Assembly (NCBI RefSeq): GCF_900114375.1 | Contig: NZ_FOSV01000005.1 | Span: 186,001-250,000, forward strand | Origin: Methylorubrum salsuginis | Lineage (GTDB): Bacteria; Pseudomonadota; Alphaproteobacteria; Rhizobiales; Beijerinckiaceae | Direction of reading: 5' to 3' | DNA: 64,000 nt | Shown: positions 55,674 to 63,723 of the stretch, one piece after another | Layout of the letters: each line of letters opens with the position of its first letter | How positions within the stretch are numbered: position 1 is the first letter of the stretch | The notes under the pieces: model-generated | What the model saw: the letters and a program-made list of their open reading frames with translations, nothing else | Told to the model about the DNA's origin: nothing | Database searches by the model: none | Program-made: the position numbers and the translations under genes

Positions 55674-55740
55674 CTCACAAAACTCCCGTTCACTGCCGGT
55701 GTCCTCTCGGGACGCGACGGTGCAACGGGAGTTTTGTGAG
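55674..55740. repeat. Short element with perfect 17-bp inverted ends
   Basis: CTCACAAAACTCCCGTT at 55674-55690 and AACGGGAGTTTTGTGAG at 55724-55740 are exact inverted repeats 33 bp apart. They look like the ends of an insertion sequence brought together, or a miniature element. The pair is in the 956-bp gene-poor scar near the IS3 remnant. A very strong RNA hairpin would form on either strand. Confidence 0.7.
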
Positions 55741-55891: not shown

Positions 55892-55905
55892 TTGCTCTGG
55901 ATCAA
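55892..55905 (+). promoter_or_regulatory. Predicted FNR box of uspA-cytochrome
   Basis: TTGCT-CTGG-ATCAA matches the FNR/FixK-type pattern with one conserved (ATCAA) and one relaxed (TTGCT) half. Its centre is 73.5 bp before the uspA start. Confidence 0.6.
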
Positions 55906-55971
55906 GGCTCGGTCGCTCCCCGACGGCGAGGATCGTCCACGGGATCGGTCGAGCGGCCCCGAGAGACGATC

Positions 55972-56784
55972 ATGAGCTACGCCAACATCCTCGTCTCGGT
56001 CGATCTCACGGAGGCGGCAGCCCGTCGGATCCGGCTCGCCGCGGGGCTCGCGCGGCGGTTCGAGGCCACGCTGATCGGCGCCGCCGCCGAGACGGTGCCG
56101 TCGCCGCTGCTCGTCCAAGACATCGACGACGCCCAGCGCCAGGACGAGGAGAACGAGGCCAAGGTCCGCGCCCTGCTGGAGCAGGCCGGAACAGTCTTCT
56201 CCGGCAACCTCGGCGAAGGGGTGCGGAGCGCGTGGCATCCGGCGCTCGCCCGTCCGGTGACGCATCTCGTGGCCGAGGCGCGGGCGGCCGACGTCGTCGT
56301 GCTCGGCCGCCGGGGCCCGGAGGACCAGACTCCGCGCCGGCTCGACGTGGCGCCCGGGCCGGTGCTGATGGAGGCGGGCCGCCCGGTGCTCGTCGTCCCG
56401 CCGGGGCTCGAGAACCTCAAGGGCGCCCGCATCGTGGTGGCGTGGAAGGACGGGCCGTCGGCGCGCCGGGCCGTCTCGGCGGCCCTACCCTTCCTCCATA
56501 ACGCCGATCAGGTCCATGTCGTGACCACCGGAGCGGATGCCCGGCTGGAAGGCGGCGAGGAGGTGGCCGCCCATCTCGCCCGGCACGGCGCCCCCGTCAC
56601 CACGCATTTCCTGCGCACCGTCGACACCGATGCCGCCGAGATCCTGCGCTTCACGCGGGCACAGGACGCCGACCTCCTGGTGATGGGCGCCTACGGTCAT
56701 TCCCGCCTGAGGGAATGGGTGTTCGGCGGCGTCACCCGCGACGTCCTGCGGAGCAGCCCCGTCTGCTGCCTGATGTGCCACTGA
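55972..56784 (+). CDS. Universal stress protein with two UspA domains
   Basis: The 270-aa protein is a tandem UspA. Domain 1 (about residues 1-145) starts MSYANILVSVDLTEAAARRIRLAAGLARRF. Domain 2 (about 150-270) has GARIVVAWKDGPSARRAV and ends with the nucleotide-loop type GAYGHSRLREWVFGGVTRDVL plus CCLM. Such proteins are induced by stress and low oxygen. It carries an FNR box upstream and its stop overlaps the cytochrome start (TGATG), so both belong to one FNR-controlled unit. Confidence 0.93.
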   Translation: MSYANILVSVDLTEAAARRIRLAAGLARRFEATLIGAAAETVPSPLLVQDIDDAQRQDEENEAKVRALLEQAGTVFSGNLGEGVRSAWHPALARPVTHLVAEARAADVVVLGRRGPEDQTPRRLDVAPGPVLMEAGRPVLVVPPGLENLKGARIVVAWKDGPSARRAVSAALPFLHNADQVHVVTTGADARLEGGEEVAAHLARHGAPVTTHFLRTVDTDAAEILRFTRAQDADLLVMGAYGHSRLREWVFGGVTRDVLRSSPVCCLMCH

Positions 56785-57110
56785 TGCCAGGTATGCCACC
56801 GATGCGAAGCGCCCTCGCCGTCGCGCTTGCGCTGATGCACCTTGCCGCGCAGGCCGGACCGAGCCCGCGGCGCGGCGAGACCATCGCGCTCGCCAACTGC
56901 GCCCGCTGCCACGCCGTGGGACGCGTAGGCATCAGTCCGCTCGCGGAGGCGCCGCCCTTCCGCGACCTGCACCGGCGCTATCCGGTCGAGGATCTGGTCG
57001 AGGCGCTGACCGAGGGCATCGTCACGGGTCACCAGAGCATGCCGGAATTCCGGCTCGACCCGGATGAGGCGCAGAACCTCATCGCCTACCTGAGGACGCT
57101 CGAACGGTGA
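56784..57110 (+). CDS. Small periplasmic monohaem cytochrome c
   Basis: The protein has a signal peptide (MRSALAVALALMHLAAQAG from an internal Met) and one haem motif CARCH. The axial Met is probably in HQSMPEFRLDPDE, followed by the C-terminal helix AQNLIAYLRTLER. It resembles class I cytochromes c of 90-110 aa. It may carry electrons to an oxidase or other low-oxygen enzyme. ATG 56784 overlaps the uspA stop; ATGs at 56793 and 56802 are alternatives that also keep the signal peptide. Confidence 0.9.
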   Translation: MPGMPPMRSALAVALALMHLAAQAGPSPRRGETIALANCARCHAVGRVGISPLAEAPPFRDLHRRYPVEDLVEALTEGIVTGHQSMPEFRLDPDEAQNLIAYLRTLER

Positions 57111-57118
57111 GGCCGTCC

Positions 57119-57892
57119 TCAGGCGGCGGCGAGGCGCTCCAGCCGGCCGGCATCGACGAGGCGCACGCCGCCGGGCACGATCAGCAGAGCCTTCTCGCGG
57201 TCGAGCCGCGTCAGCAGGCGGCTGACCGTCTCGATGGTGAGCCCGAGATGGTCGGCGATGTCCTGGCGGCCCATCGGCAGGGCCAGCGTCACCGAGGTCT
57301 GCCCGATGCGGGCGTAGCGCTCGCGGAGCGCAAGGAGGAAGCTCGCGACCTTCTCCTCGGCGCTGCGGCGGCTGAGCAGGGTCATGTGATCCTGCGCCAG
57401 ATTGAGTTCGTAGCCGGCCCGCTCGTGCAGACGCTGCAGCAGATGCGGCTTGGCCGCCACGAGACCGGCGAAGGCGCGCTTGTCGAACCGGCACAGGGTG
57501 GTGGGGCCGAGCGCCTCGGCGGTGACGGTGTAGCGCTCGGGCAGGGCGAGGCCGAGGAAGTCCCCGACCATGGCAAAGCCCATGACGTGGCGGCGCCCGT
57601 CGGGAAGCAGGCGCGACAGGCGCACCGTGCCCTCCGTTACGTTGTAGACGGCGTCCGCCGGGTCGCCCTGCCGGAACAGCGCCTGATGCGGTGCCAGGTG
57701 CAGCGGCTGGCTCAGCGCCTCGAGATCGTCGAGTTCCTCACCCGTCAGCGCCGCGCAGACGCTGAGCAGGCGAACCTTGCACGCGGCGCAGCCGCCATCC
57801 GTGCGATCGTGGAGGCAGCTGTGAGCGGATGGCCCGGTCACACTCAGCACGTCACGCCTCCCGAATTGCTCGGCGCCCTCAAGCAGATCCAT
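57119..57892 (-). CDS. fnr: FNR/FnrN-type oxygen-sensing transcription regulator
   Basis: The 257-aa Crp-family protein has N-terminal cysteines at 26, 35, 38 and 46. The 35/38/46 spacing (C-x2-C-x7-C) and a later Cys in TTLCRF give the four ligands of an oxygen-labile [4Fe-4S] cluster. The cNMP-like barrel follows, then the HTH RQDIADHLGLTIETVSRLLTRLDRE with the E-x2-SR of FNR that reads TTGAT. Four FNR-type boxes surround it in 55892-61990. Two palindromes lie just upstream of its start. Its role would be to switch on the neighbouring genes at low oxygen. Confidence 0.94.
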   Translation of the reverse strand: MDLLEGAEQFGRRDVLSVTGPSAHSCLHDRTDGGCAACKVRLLSVCAALTGEELDDLEALSQPLHLAPHQALFRQGDPADAVYNVTEGTVRLSRLLPDGRRHVMGFAMVGDFLGLALPERYTVTAEALGPTTLCRFDKRAFAGLVAAKPHLLQRLHERAGYELNLAQDHMTLLSRRSAEEKVASFLLALRERYARIGQTSVTLALPMGRQDIADHLGLTIETVSRLLTRLDREKALLIVPGGVRLVDAGRLERLAAA

Positions 57893-57927
57893 ATCCCGAC
57901 TTTCAATCCGTGAGAAGCGCCATGACT

Positions 57928-57960
57928 CCTAATCTACGACAAGATTAGGCCGTTCGGCCT
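57928..57960. promoter_or_regulatory. Two adjoining palindromes upstream of fnr
   Basis: CCTAATC-N8-GATTAGG (57928-57949) and AGGCCG-TT-CGGCCT (57947-57960) adjoin and share three bases. The first lies 36-57 bp before the fnr start and could be an operator. It is not an FNR box, since it lacks TTGAT. The second could be the tail hairpin of the Nramp gene transcript. Confidence 0.45.
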
Positions 57961-58051
57961 ATCTACGCAGACGGCAAGATGATCCGCTGTGCGGCCCTCT
58001 CACGGTGACGTTCGACCGCGGCGAGTTTCGACATCTTGGGCCGCCTGCCTC

Positions 58052-59401
58052 TCAGGCCAGCCAGGCCATCCCGAACATCGCGAGGACGGTGCCGAGCATG
58101 AGGGTGGTCGCGGTCCAGCCGAGCGCGCGCAGGGGACCGCGGATCGCGAAGGCGCCCATGATGTCGGCCTGGGCGGCAATCCGCATCATCACCGCCATGA
58201 TCGGCACCGCGACCACGCCGTTGACCACGGCGCTCCAGTAGAGCGCCCGGATCGGGTCGATGGCACCCAGGCTGACCGCCATGCCGATCCCGGTGGCAAG
58301 GGCGACGGTGGCGTAAATGGCGCGCGCCTCCCGGACGCGCCGGCCGAAGCCGACCGGCCAGCGTCGGGCCTCGCCGATGGCGTAGGCGGCGGAGCCCGCG
58401 AGCACCGGCACGGCCAGAAGACCGGTTCCGACGATGCCGAGCGCGAACAGACCGGCGGCGTACGAGCCGGCGAGCGGCCGAAGGGCTTCGACGGCTTCGG
58501 CGGAGGTGCGGATGTCGGTGACGCCGTTGGCGTGCAGGACGGCGGCGGTCGTCGCCATGATCGCGAGCGCCACGAGGTTGGAGAACCCCATGCCGACGAG
58601 GGTGTCGATCTCGATGCGCCGCAGCGCCGGCCCGCCCTGGTCCGGCGCGTGAAGCAGGTCGCGACGCCGGGGATTGGCGGCGAGGTCCTCGGCCTCTTCC
58701 GCCGCCTGCCAGAAGAACAGGTACGGGCTGATGGTGGTGCCGAACAGCGCGACCAGCGTGGTCAACGTCTCGCGGCTGGCGTCGAGCCGCGGCAGAAGCA
58801 CGCCGGCCGCGAAATCGCGCCACGCGACATGGGCGACGGCCAGCACCGCCAGATAGGCGAATAGGCTCAGGGTCGGCCACTTGAGCACCGCGACGGTTTG
58901 GGCGTAGCGCAGGCCCACCTACATCAGCGTGCAGCCGAGCGCGAAGGCAACGACGTAGGCCCAGCGCGGTCCCGGCAGAAGCAGGGTCACGGCGTCGGCC
59001 ATGGCGCCGAGATCGGCCCCGAGGTTGAGGACGTTGGCCGCCAGCAGCATCAAGACCACGCCCTGCAGCAGGCCCCCTGGATGGTGGCGCGCCAGCACGC
59101 CCGCGATGCCGTGGCCCGTGGTGCGCCCGATCCGGGCGTAGACCATCTGCACCGCCGCCATCAGGGGCAGGCTGTAGAGCGTCGTCCAGCACAGACCGTA
59201 GCCGAGTTGGGCCCCGGCTTGGCCTTAGGTCGCGATGCCGCTCGGGTCGTCGTCAGAGGCACCGGTGATCAGGCCGGGTCCGAGGACGCGCAGGAGACGC
59301 GGCTTCGACGGGCCGACGACCGGACTCCCCTCCGGGTCGTCGTCCTCGCCCCCGATCGCGGCACCCTCCCCGGCCGGGCCGTTGAGGTGCGCGTCGCTCA
59401 C
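58052..59401 (-). pseudogene. Nramp-type divalent metal transporter, broken by two in-frame stop codons
   Basis: The frame runs from GTG 59401 (overlapping the previous stop as GTGA) to 58052, 450 codons, the normal length of the family. TAA at 59227-59225 interrupts it just after GPGLITGASDDDPSGIAT, where relatives have Tyr. TAG at 58921-58919 follows FALGCTLM. No frameshift occurs. Conserved parts on both sides remain (GQAGAQLGYGLCWTTLYSLPLMAAVQ; LFGTTISPYLFFWQAAEEAEDLA), with about ten membrane helices. This is the DPSG branch of Nramp-like transporters, whose substrates are poorly known. Both stops suggest recent loss of function. Confidence 0.88.
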
Positions 59402-59640
59402 GGCGTGCCGGCCCCCGGCGCGAAAACGATGCGGGCGACCCGGACGGCCTCGTCGAGATCGTCGTAGTCGGTGCCGTAGCGGCGGCGCAGCGCGACCAAC
59501 CATTCCGGCGGCAGCGCTCCTTCGGGCCAGAGGTCGGAGGCCGGCACAAGGTACAGCCCGTCCGTGGCCTCGATGCCGTGGCCGGTCACCGCCCAGTGCC
59601 GCCCGCGCCAGTGGACTGGCGGGGTCATTTCGCGGTCCAT
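59398..59640 (-). CDS. Small conserved protein of unknown function, 80 aa
   Basis: The product reads MDREMTPPVHWRGRHWAVTG then HGIEATDGLYLVPASDLWPEGALPPEWLVALRRRYGTDYDDLDEAVRVARIVF. It is soluble, rich in Trp/Arg, with a helix-turn region at the end. I do not know the family. Its stop overlaps the start of the broken Nramp gene (GTGA), and it follows the 71-aa gene by 32 bp, so all three form one unit behind an FNR box. Confidence 0.65.
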   Translation of the reverse strand: MDREMTPPVHWRGRHWAVTGHGIEATDGLYLVPASDLWPEGALPPEWLVALRRRYGTDYDDLDEAVRVARIVFAPGAGTP

Positions 59641-59672
59641 GTCTGCCTCCGTAGCGTCCTTCTTCCGCCGCC

Positions 59673-59888
59673 TCAGGCGGCGACGTCCGCCAGCGCGACG
59701 GCCTCGCAGGTATCGGCGCGCAGGCGCCAATCGGCGACGCCCATCGCCTCGCGGAACATCGCCTTGGCCTCGAACAGGGCCGACACCTCCGAGCGCGCGC
59801 CGACCAGGGCCTGGTGTTGGAGGATGGTGTGGTCGTGACCGCTGTCGTCGGCGACGATCTTGTAGAAGTTGACGAGGTACTGGCGCAT
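59673..59888 (-). CDS. Small conserved protein of unknown function, 71 aa
   Basis: The sequence MRQYLVNFYKIVADDSGHDH is followed by TILQHQALVGARSEVSALFEAKAMFREAMGVADWRLRADTCEAVAL. It has His-rich and helical parts, no membrane segment. AGGAG lies nine bases upstream of ATG 59888. An FNR box is centred 62.5 bp upstream of the start. It is the first gene of the FNR-controlled unit that ends in the Nramp pseudogene. Confidence 0.7.
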   Translation of the reverse strand: MRQYLVNFYKIVADDSGHDHTILQHQALVGARSEVSALFEAKAMFREAMGVADWRLRADTCEAVALADVAA

Positions 59889-59943
59889 GGCGTGGCTCCT
59901 GCGGGCAACGGCCACAGCCTGAGCGCGCCGCGACGGGGCGGCT

Positions 59944-59957
59944 TTGATCCATCGCAA
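59944..59957 (-). promoter_or_regulatory. Predicted FNR box of the 71-aa gene unit
   Basis: TTGAT-CCAT-CGCAA on the plus strand, equally TTGCG-N4-ATCAA on the minus. One half-site is consensus. Centre 62.5 bp before the ATG at 59888. Confidence 0.65.
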
Positions 59958-59967
59958 GGCGACCGGG

Positions 59968-60951
59968 CTACGGCACCAGCACGGCTGCACCGTTCAGGGC
60001 GCCGGTGCGATGGGCGGCGATGGCCTCGTTCGCCCGCGCCAGCGGGAAGCTACGCGTGCGGGTCTCGATCCCGGCCTTCGAAGCGACGGCGAAGAAGTCC
60101 AGGGCGTCGGCCTGGGGGAGGTTCGCGACCGAGAGCAGCGCGCGCTCGCCCCACTGCCGCGCGTAGGGGAAGGACGGGATCGCGCTCATGTGAATGCCGC
60201 CGCAGACGACCCGGCCCCCTTTGCGCACCGCGCCCAGGGCGACCGGCACTAGCCGGCCATCGGGTGCGAAGATCAGAGCGGCGTCGAGGGGCTCGGGCGC
60301 CGCCTCGTCCGCGCCGCTGGCCCATTCGGCACCGAGTGCGCGGGCGAAATCCTGCGTCAGGCCGTCGCCGGGACGGGTGTAGGCGAAGACCCGGCAGCCC
60401 TGCCAGCGGCAAAGCTTGGCGACGATTTGGGCGGCGGCGCCGAAGCCGTAGAGTCCGACCGTCCCGGCCTCGCCCGCCAGCTTCAGGGTACGCCATCCGA
60501 TCAGGCCGGCGCAGAGCAGCGGCGCGGTCGCGACCGGGTCGCATCCGGGATCGAGGGTTACGGTGAAGGCGGCCTCCGCCAGGAGATGGGTCACGAAGCC
60601 GCCGTCGCGCGTGCAACCGGTGAAGCCCGGCGCGTCGCACAGGTTCTTGCGGCCATTGGCACAGTACGGGCAGCGACCGCAGGCATGGCCGAGCCAGGGC
60701 ACGCCGACCCGCGTCCCGAGCCGCGGCGCCCGCACGCCGGGTCCGAGGGCCTCGACCGTGCCGACGACCTCGTGCCCGGGGACGACGGGATAGACCGCCT
60801 GGGGCAGTTCGCCGTCGATGAGGTGGAGATCCGTACGGCAGACGGCGCAGGCCTCGACCCGGATGCGGACTTCGCCCGGTCCCGGCTCCGGATCGGGCCG
60901 GGTTTCCGGAACGAGGTGACCACCGACGCCGGGGAGCACCATGGCCTGCAT
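59968..60951 (-). CDS. Zinc-dependent alcohol dehydrogenase family protein
   Basis: A 327-aa medium-chain dehydrogenase. The catalytic zinc ligands are in CAVCRTDLHLIDGELP and PVVPGHEVVGTVEALG. The structural zinc set is CGRCPYCANGRKNLC, and CTRDGGFVTHLL marks the substrate side. The Rossmann motif is degenerate (GLYGFGAAAQIVAKL). Related proteins (AdhA type) oxidise ethanol and small alcohols. It lies 28 bp behind a 70-aa gene with an FNR box and probably is co-expressed with it, so a low-oxygen role is suggested. Confidence 0.93.
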   Translation of the reverse strand: MQAMVLPGVGGHLVPETRPDPEPGPGEVRIRVEACAVCRTDLHLIDGELPQAVYPVVPGHEVVGTVEALGPGVRAPRLGTRVGVPWLGHACGRCPYCANGRKNLCDAPGFTGCTRDGGFVTHLLAEAAFTVTLDPGCDPVATAPLLCAGLIGWRTLKLAGEAGTVGLYGFGAAAQIVAKLCRWQGCRVFAYTRPGDGLTQDFARALGAEWASGADEAAPEPLDAALIFAPDGRLVPVALGAVRKGGRVVCGGIHMSAIPSFPYARQWGERALLSVANLPQADALDFFAVASKAGIETRTRSFPLARANEAIAAHRTGALNGAAVLVP

Positions 60952-60979
60952 CGGATCGAACGCGCCGCGGTTCGCCGAC

Positions 60980-61192
60980 TCAGAGGGCGATCCAAAGCAG
61001 GCCGGTCAGCAGCATCGAGGCGGCGACGGCGAGGCCGAGCGCCTGCAGGCTGCCGATGCTCTGATGCCGGTATCCGTCCTCAATCGTGCCCTCGGCGTTC
61101 GCCGCCGTCGGGGGCGCCCAGCGACCGGCGCCCCGCGGCATCCCGACGGCCCGCACCGTCATCCCCAACATGGCTCTCGCGACCGTCGTCAT
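60980..61192 (-). CDS. Small membrane protein, 70 aa, first gene of the adh unit
   Basis: MTTVARAMLGMTVRAVGMPR opens the protein and ALGLAVAASMLLTGLLWIAL is a C-terminal membrane helix. The middle is polar. No family recognised. The ATG at 61192 has GGGAGGGACGGCG upstream, a good ribosome site, and an FNR box is centred 67.5 bp upstream. Confidence 0.65.
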   Translation of the reverse strand: MTTVARAMLGMTVRAVGMPRGAGRWAPPTAANAEGTIEDGYRHQSIGSLQALGLAVAASMLLTGLLWIAL

Positions 61193-61252
61193 CGCCGTCC
61201 CTCCCGATCTTCATGCGTGGCTAGGGTGAGGGCGAAGGGCGAAGCCGGCTTT

Positions 61253-61266
61253 GATTCAGCGCAAGG
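61253..61266 (-). promoter_or_regulatory. Predicted FNR box of the adh unit
   Basis: TTGAT-TCAG-CGCAA on the plus strand, the same half-site pair as the box at 59944-59957. Centre 67.5 bp before the ATG at 61192. Confidence 0.65.
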
Positions 61267-61286
61267 CTTCGATCCGAGGCCGCGGA

Positions 61287-61517
61287 TCAGTCGTGTCGCG
61301 GGCGAACGCCCGCGATAAGGGCGGCTTGATGCGGGTCCATCGCCGGCCCCAGTCGTGACAGCACCGCCACGCCGAACAGGTTCACGATCCCGATCAAGGC
61401 CAGCACGAGGATGAGGGTGACGTCGCTCGGCCGATGGCGCCCGGCATGGATGCCGAGGCAGCCCGCGACGAAGACCAGCGCCAGGACGAGGTTCAGGAGA
61501 TCGGCGGGCGGGGTCAT
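61287..61517 (-). CDS. Small two-helix membrane protein, 76 aa
   Basis: Two membrane helices are visible: LLNLVLALVFVAGCLGIHAG and LILVLALIGIVNLFGVAVLS. No family recognised. It is 21 bp downstream of the SPW gene on the same strand, so probably in its unit. A GTG at 61532 is an alternative start. Confidence 0.6.
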   Translation of the reverse strand: MTPPADLLNLVLALVFVAGCLGIHAGRHRPSDVTLILVLALIGIVNLFGVAVLSRLGPAMDPHQAALIAGVRPRHD

Positions 61518-61538
61518 CGTCCGAGCCGTCACGCATCG

Positions 61539-61907
61539 TTAGAACGAGCGCGCGTCGGGCGCCTCGCGCAGACGCCACAATTCGGCGAGCGCCGAGACCA
61601 CGAGGGCGAGGCCGAAGCCGAGATGGGTGATCAGGGGAATCTGCGCGTCCTCGAAGCCCATGACCCACGGGGCCGCGCAGACCCAGACGCCGACGATCGC
61701 GAGGAGAACCTCCTCCATGTCGTAGGTCTGGAGCAGGGACAGCACCGCCAGCCCGAGGACGGCGCCCGCGCAGAGCCACAGGTTCCAGGTGGCCTGCGTC
61801 TGATCGAGGAAGCTCAGTGCCCAGGGAGCGAGCACCATCCCTGCGGCGAGACCCAGATTCCAGACGCCGAGGAAGATCTCCTCGGCTCCGTTGGAGATGG
61901 TGCGCAT
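61539..61907 (-). CDS. SPW-repeat membrane protein
   Basis: The 122-aa protein has four membrane helices in two similar halves: WNLGLAAGMVLAPWALSFLD and, later, VGVWVCAAPWVMGFED. Each carries the APW core of the SPW repeat, and TWNLWLCAGAVLGLAVLSLL links them. Such proteins occur in stress-related operons; function unknown. ATG 61907 follows GGGAGGGCAGC. An FNR box is centred 76.5 bp upstream, within the end of cydC. Confidence 0.85.
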   Translation of the reverse strand: MRTISNGAEEIFLGVWNLGLAAGMVLAPWALSFLDQTQATWNLWLCAGAVLGLAVLSLLQTYDMEEVLLAIVGVWVCAAPWVMGFEDAQIPLITHLGFGLALVVSALAELWRLREAPDARSF

Positions 61908-61976
61908 GCTGCCCTCCCGAACTCCGGCGCCGACATCGCCATGTCCGAACGGTGCGCCGTCTCCGGGCGCGGGCCC

Positions 61977-61990
61977 TTGCGATGGATCAA
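61977..61990 (-). promoter_or_regulatory. Predicted FNR box of the SPW unit
   Basis: TTGCG-ATGG-ATCAA on the plus strand, the reverse complement of the TTGAT-N4-CGCAA pattern of the other boxes. Centre 76.5 bp before the ATG at 61907; it overlaps the cydC stop codon (61987-61989). Confidence 0.6.
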
Positions 61991-63723
61991 ACCGCGATCA
62001 CCGCTCGGTCGGGTGCGCCGATCCCCGCGTCCAACGAGACGATCCGCGCGGGCAGTGCGAGATCGGGGCGATGGCTCGTCAGCACGACGGTGCGCTCCTC
62101 CCAGCCCGCCAGCAGGCGCCCGAGAATGCGCCCGGCCTGATCGTCACCGAGATGCTCGGCCGGTTCGTCGAGCAGGATCACGGGCGCCGGGCTGAGCGCC
62201 GCGCGGGCGAGTGCGAGGCGTTGGGCCTCGCCGAGCGACAGGGTGCCCTCCCCGATCCAGGCGTCGAGGCCACCGCCCTCGCGAATGCGGCCATCGAGTT
62301 CGACTGTCGCCAGCGCTGCCCAGAGATCGGAATCGGCGGCCCCCGGGGCGAACAGGTTCTCCCGGACGGTGTCGGCGAGGATCGCCGCATCGTGCAGTGC
62401 AAGGTGCGTCACGGTCCGGCGCTCGACGGCCGTGAGCGCCCTTCCGTCGAGCCGGATCGCTTCGCCCGGCCGGTCGTCGCTCCAGCCCGCGAGCGCCTTG
62501 AGCAGGCTGGTCTTGCCGCATCCGCTGGCGCCGAAGAGGACCAGGGGGCAGCCGGGGGCGATGGTCAGGTCCGGCGCGGGGCCGAGATCGCGCCCATCGG
62601 GCGCGCGCAGGCGGACGCCGCATAGGGCCAATGCCCCCGCAGCCGTGACGGTCGGCAACTCCGGCTCGGGCGTCGCCCCCTCCTCCTCCTTGAGCGCGGC
62701 GCGGGCCGCGCGGGCCCGAACGGCACCGAGGAGAGAGCGGGCCAGCGCGAGCGCCGGCTCGGTGATCCCGAGCCACGCGAAGGCCAGGAACGTCGCCGGC
62801 AGCAGCCCCGTCCCGCGCTGGCCCGTCGTCCAGGCCGCCAGCAGCACGGCGAGGGCGGCACCGGGGCCGGCGAGCCCCAGCAGGGACTCGAACCGCGCGA
62901 GCGCCCGGCGACCCGCCGCGGTCTCCCGCTCCGCGTCGCGGAGCGAATCGAGGGCCGACCGCAGGGCGAACCCGCGCCGAGCCTCGGCGGCCAGCGGTAC
63001 GGCGCCCGCCAGCACCGCACCGAACTCCGCCGCGCCCCGCCGCCGCGCGGCTCGGACCTGCGCCTCGCGCGTGGTCAGGCAACGGGCGGTGGCGCGGCAG
63101 AGGGCGAGGCTCGCCAGGGCCAGCCCGACGAGCGGCACGAGGGCGAGCGGTGCGAGCCAGGCCGTGGCGGCGGTGAGCGCCAACAGCGCCGTGCCGGTCG
63201 TCGCGAGGGCGAAGTCGACGCGCAGCCGGGCGAAATCGATGTCGGCCACGTCGTCGATGTAATCGGCCAGCCGCTCCGGGCGGCCGAGCTGCCAGCCGGA
63301 GCCGCGGCTCTCCGGCGCGCGCGCCAGCGCGGCGAACAGGCGTGATCGGCGGCGGACCTGATCGCCGAGTGCCGCCCGATGGCCGGCCATGCGCTCGCCG
63401 TAGCGCGCGCCGGTGCGCAGCAGCGCGAACAGGCGCACCAGCGCGGCCGGGTGGTGGATGTTGAAGGCCAACGCCCCGGGACCGGCCCCGGCGAGCGCTA
63501 CCGCCGCCAAGAAGGTCGCGGCCGTGCCGGCGAGTGCGAGGTTGGCCGCGAGCGCCAGCGCCGCGAGGGCGAAGGCGAGGCGCCAGGGATGGGCCGAGTC
63601 TCGGGATTCCGAAGGGATCATCCCTTCGGCGGGGACCGGGGCAGCGCCCCGAATTTCCCAGGGCTCCACCCTGGACACGCGACACCCGGACGCATCGCTC
63701 GGCGCAATCTGGACAAGGGTCAT
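61987..63723 (-). CDS. cydC: CydC subunit of the CydDC ABC exporter, N-terminus built on a repeat
   Basis: The 578-aa protein has a six-helix ABC membrane domain (about residues 35-320) and an ATPase domain. The latter has a Walker A GASGCGKTSLLKALAG, signature TLSLGEAQRLALARA (SLGEA for SGGQR), Walker B PVILLDEPAEHL and H-loop VVLTSHRPD. CydDC exports cysteine and glutathione and is needed to assemble cytochrome bd oxidase and c-type cytochromes, fitting the microaerobic neighbours. The start overlaps the cydD stop in ATGA. Residues 15-40 (RVSRVEPWEIRGAAPVPAEG) are encoded by a palindromic repeat, so this extension is probably not part of the fold. An internal ATG at 63621 would skip most of it. 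Confidence 0.92.
   Translation of the reverse strand: MTLVQIAPSDASGCRVSRVEPWEIRGAAPVPAEGMIPSESRDSAHPWRLAFALAALALAANLALAGTAATFLAAVALAGAGPGALAFNIHHPAALVRLFALLRTGARYGERMAGHRAALGDQVRRRSRLFAALARAPESRGSGWQLGRPERLADYIDDVADIDFARLRVDFALATTGTALLALTAATAWLAPLALVPLVGLALASLALCRATARCLTTREAQVRAARRRGAAEFGAVLAGAVPLAAEARRGFALRSALDSLRDAERETAAGRRALARFESLLGLAGPGAALAVLLAAWTTGQRGTGLLPATFLAFAWLGITEPALALARSLLGAVRARAARAALKEEEGATPEPELPTVTAAGALALCGVRLRAPDGRDLGPAPDLTIAPGCPLVLFGASGCGKTSLLKALAGWSDDRPGEAIRLDGRALTAVERRTVTHLALHDAAILADTVRENLFAPGAADSDLWAALATVELDGRIREGGGLDAWIGEGTLSLGEAQRLALARAALSPAPVILLDEPAEHLGDDQAGRILGRLLAGWEERTVVLTSHRPDLALPARIVSLDAGIGAPDRAVIAV
63609..63680. repeat. Palindromic repeat inside the 5' end of cydC
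   Basis: CCGAAGGGA-TCA-TCCCTTCGG (63609-63629) is followed by GGGGACCGGGGCAGCGCCCC and then CCAGGGCTCCACCCTGG. These are the same blocks in the same order as in the intergenic copy at 1846-1951. The reading frame stays open through it. Confidence 0.75.

Follow-up and report, generated by a model that had tools for sequence, protein, structure and literature searches.

A gene cluster around fnr with FNR-type boxes as the very probable core of a low-oxygen regulon in Methylorubrum salsuginis

Introduction

The 64 kb window of the Methylorubrum salsuginis genome analyzed here (the whole stretch C35:186001-250000; genome of 5.32 Mb in 63 contigs; window G+C content 70.6%) contains a gene cluster that is very likely the core of a low-oxygen regulon, in which FNR, a putative iron–sulfur regulator encoded by fnr inside the cluster, would activate promoters bearing FNR/FixK-type boxes by class II activation. 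This interpretation is preferred because of the spacing between the boxes and the −10 elements, the conservation of the boxes in relatives, the cysteines of the regulator and the finding of a single suitable regulator among the matches in the genome. Under low oxygen the iron–sulfur cluster of FNR would remain intact and the protein would dimerize; the dimer would bind TTGAT/CGCAA boxes whose centres lie 41.5 bp upstream of the transcription start, activating RNA polymerase at weak −10 elements. The units switched on would be uspA with a cytochrome c gene, a gene for a protein of 71 amino acids (aa) with an 80-aa gene and a decayed Nramp gene, a 70-aa gene with an alcohol dehydrogenase gene, and an SPW gene with a small hydrophobic gene. 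Genes for cytochrome bd (cydAB) would probably be switched on as well; a second cluster, which lies on contig C39 and holds a paralogue of the 70-aa gene, would complete the set. We infer cluster binding, DNA binding, activation, the oxygen response and the operon structure from the sequence.

A control system of this kind is well known; the less known parts are the two small-protein families and an apparent exchange of the sensor. In Bradyrhizobium diazoefficiens the FixK2 box is TTG(A/C)-N6-(T/G)CAA. Expression of the FixK2-dependent gene nosR requires one such box, TTGATCCAGCGCAA, and is shut down when that box is deleted; the start sites of nosR lie at +40.5 and +67.5 (PMC5582078). The same TTGATCCAGCGCAA occurs exactly in the C39 cluster and in many relatives, and the window boxes differ from it by one base. 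FixLJ induces FixK2 (PMC9104804). In the excerpted text of PMC6515984, four universal stress proteins of B. diazoefficiens are treated, and two of these, together with AdhP, are induced by microoxia and belong to the direct FixK2 regulon; the kinds of targets therefore overlap with those found here (a universal stress protein and an alcohol dehydrogenase). For the alpha-proteobacteria, the predicted FixK members include cytochrome c, zinc alcohol dehydrogenase and hypothetical proteins, and the predicted FNR members include UspA and the regulator itself (Dufour et al., 2010, PMC2908626). In the Methylobacterium/Bradyrhizobium group, the FNR regulon is described as reduced or missing and the FixK regulon as well kept (PMC2908626); in contrast to that excerpted picture, the evident reader in the present cluster is a cysteine-bearing FNR. 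No paper on this cluster was found by title or abstract start in open-licence PMC (Methylobacterium FNR or hypoxia regulon, and these target sets).

If the interpretation is correct, it would provide a defined low-oxygen regulon for a Methylobacterium-type bacterium in whose genome no ccoN match was found. It would also place two unnamed small-protein families, present in 37 (70-aa) and 53 (71-aa) of 99 congeneric genomes, under a probable named control, opening a direct route to their function.

Boxes and promoter anatomy

The four boxes in the window are as follows.

55892-55905, + strand: FNR/FixK-type box TTGCTCTGGATCAA, centre 73.5 bp before uspA
59944-59957, − strand: box, in gene sense TTGCGATGGATCAA, centre 62.5 bp before the 71-aa gene
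61251-61264, − strand: box, in gene sense TTGCGCTGAATCAA, centre 65.5 bp before the 70-aa gene
61977-61990, − strand: box, in gene sense TTGATCCATCGCAA, centre 76.5 bp before the SPW gene, overlapping the end of cydC by 4 bp

A sequence-only reading of this DNA had proposed these boxes. The 14-mers starting at 55892, 59944 and 61977 are present and their distances of 73.5, 62.5 and 76.5 bp were reproduced, whereas the third box starts at 61251 rather than 61253 and lies 65.5 bp, not 67.5 bp, from the start codon. The same reading had placed FNR-type activator boxes at about −41.5 before uspA, the 71-aa gene, the 70-aa gene and the SPW gene, and had assigned them to the cysteine-bearing FNR encoded between them; both proposals are strongly supported by the alignment of −10 positions and by conservation in relatives, the latter being thin for the SPW gene (one of one).

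In a −10 element of the sigma-70 type, positions −11 and −7 are the two key bases. When the four promoters were aligned on the box centre, A at +30.5 and T at +34.5 were the only downstream A/T columns identical in all four, and these correspond to −11A and −7T if the box centre is set at −41.5. The hexamers concerned are listed below.

55928-55933, + strand: −10-like hexamer GAGGAT, +29.5 to +34.5 from the centre of the uspA box
59916-59921, − strand: −10-like hexamer CAGGCT, before the 71-aa gene
61223-61228, − strand: −10-like hexamer CACCCT, before the 70-aa gene
61949-61954, − strand: −10-like hexamer CACCGT, before the SPW gene

The pattern nAnnnT stands exactly at +29.5 to +34.5 from all four boxes, with p ≈ 0.02 per site for such a pair by base composition, and each window box, if centred near −41.5, has a −10-like element at the matching distance, as expected of a class II promoter. 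The pattern also fits two of the three boxes in the C39 cluster (CACCAT and CACCCT). For uspA, the boxed promoters are those of 17 relatives plus the window's own, and A+30.5 was found in 18/18 and T+34.5 in 15/18; the corresponding counts for boxed 71-aa promoters, own locus included, were 18/21 and 14/21. In the boxed 70-aa promoters (n = 28, own included), the A/T pair mostly lies one base closer to the box, with 24/28 at each position. These promoter sets were picked for the presence of a box, and the counts therefore bear on the −10 spacing and not on box presence.

The pattern TTG[AC]N6[GT]CAA has only four unique matches in the 64 kb, namely the four boxes. Tighter patterns, framed post hoc once the sites were known, stand further from expectation: TTGATN4[AC][GT]CAA was seen four times against a simulated mean of 0.075 per 64 kb (maximum 1), and TTGATN4CGCAA three times against a mean of 0.1 (40 simulations each). 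The interval 55-80 bp before a called start covers 2.3% of window positions, yet it holds all four boxes. The near-constant distance itself was rejected as a special feature, because class II promoters with short leaders produce the same and because the distances vary in boxed relatives (59.5-90.5 bp for uspA and 123.5 bp for one 70-aa gene, at locus L044).

Conservation in relatives

Genes were called with our own codon-usage script, and the gene and promoter-distance classes of the boxes are approximate. Box counts for the 70-aa gene, the 71-aa gene and uspA leave out the window's own locus unless stated; they cover 29 relatives' loci for the 70-aa gene (30 loci, one being the window's own; 28/30 boxed with it included) and 29 for the 71-aa gene, and those for uspA, the 76-aa gene and the SPW gene cover 27 relatives' fnr-centred loci.

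The 70-aa gene gave 45 matches in the 37 congeneric genomes, and the proteins of the relatives compared here are 44-57% identical to it. A box lies 45-75 bp before its start in 27 of the 29 loci, or in 17/18 under a stricter BLAST setting that resolved only 19 of the 30 loci (own included); the remaining two are L044, with its box at 123.5 bp, and L024, with none within the 220 bp examined. The 71-aa gene is boxed in 20/29 loci and in all 11 where an Nramp gene adjoins, and upstream of four of its nine unboxed loci a near-box, TTGT...ATCAA, was read by eye. For uspA, 18 of 24 matches in the 27 loci are boxed, rising to 17/19 at an identity of at least 56%. Comparative evidence for the SPW gene is thin, consisting of one relative (L094), which is boxed; the 76-aa gene is boxed in one of two fnr-centred loci. 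A box is thus mostly kept upstream of orthologues of the 70-aa gene, the 71-aa gene and uspA, as expected of class II promoters, with just this single case for SPW.

A further set, 80 of 474 loci of named FNR relatives, from which the window's own genome is possibly left out, belongs to Methylorubrum and Methylobacterium species, the best of these 80 being Methylorubrum rhodinum (82%). Here uspA at all identities is boxed in 17/30 loci and the 70-aa gene in 4/5, two of them at 111.5 bp. As base rates, 57 of the 419 genes called across the 27 relatives' loci, which are themselves regulon-rich, have a strict box within the 150 bp upstream, and so do 8 of 214 genes in stretches of the own genome together with the window, which were picked around boxes.

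The regulator

57119-57892, − strand: fnr, CRP/FNR-type regulator of 257 aa, with Cys35, Cys38, Cys46 and Cys134 and the helix GLTIETVSR

The protein contains the domains PF00027, PF00325 and PF13545. It has the four cysteines of an FNR, three N-terminal and one central, a set shared in full by 68 of 81 aligned sequences. In known FNR proteins such cysteines ligate a [4Fe-4S] cluster, and by analogy those of the present regulator probably bind one as well. The N-terminal spacing is CX2CX7C, which we take to differ from the E. coli FNR type. The helix GLTIETVSR has the form E-x-x-S-R when aligned to FNR and FixK2, a recognition helix that presumably reads TTGAT. FixK2 is not known to have an FNR-type cysteine cluster, and the cysteines thus set the window regulator apart from a FixK; the lack of a ccoN match in this genome is another difference from the FixK2 regulon. 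The best solved relatives are FixK2 (4i2o, E = 5.6e-28) and the FNR-type structures 9qly (E = 2.6e-26) and 5cvr (E = 1.8e-25); the solved FNR (5cvr/5e44 and relatives) and FixK2 structures are nevertheless distant in sequence.

Eight CRP/FNR matches were found in the genome (E ≤ 0.001), and the ETVSR helix was seen only in the fnr product. The helices of six others read IHVSR, VHITR, ESVNR, VHVNR, VHINR and VHVSR, and the seventh shows no DNA-binding part in its called frame. Since none of these shows an ETVSR helix, the fnr product is the only evident candidate reader of the boxes.

A possible exchange of the sensor within the genus

The 70-aa gene occurs in 36 other genomes; a close FNR (at least 64% identity) is present in 17 of them and absent from 19. 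Twenty FixK-like regulators were compared, 16 of them from the 19 genomes without a close FNR, the comparison leaving out G012, G051 and G078. All 20 lack the four-cysteine set and all 20 carry GLTIETVSR. The 70-aa locus was covered in 15 of these 16 FixK-type genomes; 14 are boxed at 45-75 bp, and the fifteenth is L044. Neither G051 nor G078 gave a close FNR or FixK match in the regulator search of congeneric genomes.

The boxes appear to be kept while the type of sensor differs, with at least one case (G078) unexplained. The chances are about even that, within one genus, the same boxes and orphan small-protein families have stayed fixed while their reader was exchanged between an iron–sulfur FNR, itself an oxygen sensor, in some species and a cysteine-less FixK with an identical recognition helix in others. 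If so, the low-oxygen response would include the 70-aa and 71-aa proteins as constant but undescribed members, and boxes conserved across the change of sensor would offer a natural test of how one regulator can replace another while the wiring of the targets stays as it was.

Boxes across the genome

The set of boxes proved to be wider than the four that the sequence-only reading had described, with a box before cydA and the C39 cluster found in addition. Genome-wide, TTGATN4CGCAA has 11 matches and its reversed-pattern control none. The pattern TTGATN5KCAA gave 43 matches, against 13 for the reversed control; the 43 reduce to 40 unique sites, since three palindromes were counted twice. Eight of the 40 fall into two clusters, five at C35:241892-251413 (within 9.5 kb) and three at C39:38792-39842 (within 1.05 kb). 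An equal frequency of the motif inside coding regions, which the sequence-only reading had named as a refutation, was not observed for the clustered boxes: 0/8 of these lie entirely within a called gene (the SPW box extends into the end of cydC), against 19 of the other 32. Promoter distance was found for seven of the eight clustered boxes and for two of the 32, the remaining 11 lying elsewhere. A few further targets are possible, because another called start follows at 20-150 bp for six of the 19 in-gene sites, and because four of the host frames are short (65, 68, 128 and 128 aa) and may not be genes. A consensus scan allowing up to two mismatches gave 78 matches against 26 for the reversed control and was too loose for use; with up to one mismatch it gave 10, six of them in the two clusters.

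The fifth C35 box, TTGATCTGGGTCAA, lies at C35:251400-251413 (L149 6401-6414), 1.4 kb beyond the window and between cydD and cydA, with its centre 55.5 bp before cydA. The C39 cluster (L083 7899-9843) combines its three boxes, within about 1 kb, with a paralogue that is 76% identical to the 70-aa protein. One C39 box precedes another CRP-like regulator gene, 103.5 bp from its called start, and this arrangement suggests a regulatory cascade. Elsewhere, a site TTGATCGCGTTCAA was observed 96.5 bp before an identical 239-aa frame on two contigs (L281, C42:17398, and L287, C56:33317); this pair may reflect a duplication or overlapping contigs in the assembly, and the site could mark a further target.

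Alternative explanations

Several observations weigh against an FNR-controlled regulon as proposed here. No box was found before fnr itself with the loose pattern in the 64 kb window. The regulator scores below the curated NCBIfam cut-offs (FnrL, 140.7 versus 300 bits; Fnr, 109.3 versus 228; FixK, 145.4 versus 300); by its sequence features it is FNR-like, but it is not a member of the NCBIfam Fnr or FnrL models. At the cydA box the position expected for nAnnnT is occupied by GCAAGC, so that the matching −10 element of the window boxes is lacking, and C39:39310 lacks the pattern in either direction. Among relatives, only three of nine 71-aa genes in fnr-centred loci have a strict box, the uspA orthologues at L115 and L098 (at least 56% identity) have none, and in the 80 of 474 named loci the 71-aa gene is boxed in 1/4 and the 76-aa gene in 0/1. 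Genome G078 has boxes before its 70-aa (L037) and 71-aa (L243) genes, yet its best match to FNR or FixK is not a close one (E = 5.8e-14). In B. diazoefficiens, the remaining two of the four universal stress proteins and a further alcohol dehydrogenase were induced and, in the excerpted text, are not marked as direct FixK2 targets (PMC6515984). Finally, the loose pattern by itself is not decisive: with both strands counted, it was seen eight times against a mean of 2.75 in 40 first-order Markov simulations, one of which equalled the observed eight.

This last count is also what might suggest that the boxes are chance or decayed motifs without function and that their spacing is coincidental, since the expectation is about 1.4 loose matches per 64 kb and the simulated maximum equals the count seen; most of the other genome matches, with 19 of 32 inside genes, look like background. 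Such an origin is nevertheless exceedingly improbable, and it was rejected not through the loose count but through the alignment of −10 positions and the conservation of the boxes in relatives, together with the promoter distance of 4/4 boxes. Alternatively, functional boxes might be read mainly by another protein of the CRP/FNR family, FixK-like or DNR-like, with the neighbouring FNR only partly responsible. The targets of FNR, FixK and DNR are described as nearly identical in the excerpted text of PMC2908626; a FixK-like protein without the four cysteines but with the same helix is present in 16/16 examined genomes that have the 70-aa gene and no close FNR, and a regulator gene could be missing from an assembly in 63 contigs. 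The seven other CRP/FNR matches in the genome itself, with six helices of other types and one frame without a DNA-binding part, argue against this explanation, which is unlikely. It is very unlikely that some of the boxes, chiefly the one at the end of cydC, act as repressor sites or belong to a different promoter. The SPW box is oriented opposite to the other three and reaches into cydC, and only one SPW relative was found among the 27 loci; but the same −10 positions occur at the same spacing before the SPW gene, the sole relative (L094) has its box at 86.5 bp, and the orientation of the box also varies among boxed 70-aa genes.

Genes under the boxes

The called genes of the cluster other than fnr are listed below.

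55972-56784, + strand: universal stress protein gene uspA, 270 aa (PF00582, E = 3.3e-19)
56802-57110, + strand: gene for a small c-type cytochrome, following uspA (PF13442, E = 1.2e-10, obtained with the longer reading 56715-57110)
58052-59401, − strand: gene of the Nramp family, interrupted by in-frame stops at 59225-59227 and 58919-58921 (PF01566, matched by its longest piece)
59398-59640, − strand: 80-aa gene, no family found, situated between the 71-aa gene and Nramp
59673-59888, − strand: 71-aa protein gene, conserved family, no Pfam or NCBIfam match
59968-60951, − strand: zinc alcohol dehydrogenase, TIGR02822-like (PF08240, E = 7.5e-28; TIGR02822, 275.9 bits, just under the cut-off of 283.5)
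60980-61192, − strand: 70-aa protein gene, hydrophobic C-terminus, conserved family (Saf_2TM only below cut-off, no confident family match)
61287-61517, − strand: small hydrophobic protein, 76 aa, downstream of SPW, with relatives in L094 and L099
61539-61907, − strand: SPW-repeat membrane protein, 122 aa (PF03779, E = 7.5e-16)
61987-63621, − strand: cydC-like ATP-binding cassette (ABC) exporter gene (TIGR02868, 190.9 bits, under the cut-off of 329)

Membership of the predicted units (uspA–cytochrome c, 71-aa/80-aa/Nramp, 70-aa/alcohol dehydrogenase and SPW/76-aa) is judged from gene spacing. A relative of the cytochrome was called in 13/27 relatives' loci. The alcohol dehydrogenase, which the sequence-only reading had tied to low oxygen, has no box of its own, and its sole link to the boxes is that it begins 28 bp after the 70-aa gene. 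The count of 53 genomes for the 71-aa gene was obtained at E ≤ 0.001 and includes a few weak matches; the model of its protein has a mean predicted local distance difference test (pLDDT) score of 79.2 and a strand–strand–helix–strand order, with no match in the PDB at E ≤ 0.001. After cydC follow cydD and a cydAB-like pair, partly or wholly outside the window and named by position and by the cydC/cydD matches. A cbb3 oxidase was rejected as a target, as no ccoN match was found in the genome at E ≤ 0.001; in the control search 6/14 genomes matched, one of them above the cut-off.

The Nramp gene forms one unbroken frame without a frameshift apart from its two stops, and at both stop places a residue is present in 10/10 aligned relatives (of 11 loci). 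It is very probably a pseudogene here through recent decay, unless the assembly is in error. The earlier proposal that an Nramp transporter is tied to low oxygen therefore fails for this genome, and a working transporter under FNR control was rejected on account of the two stops. The box, the 71-aa gene and Nramp occur together in 11/29 relatives' loci; because all 11 are boxed, Nramp likely belongs to the regulon in those relatives, a link lost here unless the assembly is wrong.

A short inverted repeat was read by eye at 57928-57949, between fnr and the Nramp remnant; the folding of the 159-nucleotide (nt) stretch around it was not clearly better than that of shuffles (z = −1.05). Upstream of the uspA box, at 55674-55740, there is a perfect 17-nt inverted repeat with 33 nt between its arms. 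The arm has 22 genome matches with up to one mismatch, pairs 50 bp apart occur in four places including that in the window, and both of the two further copies inspected lie between called genes, so that this repeat looks like a palindromic intergenic repeat element.

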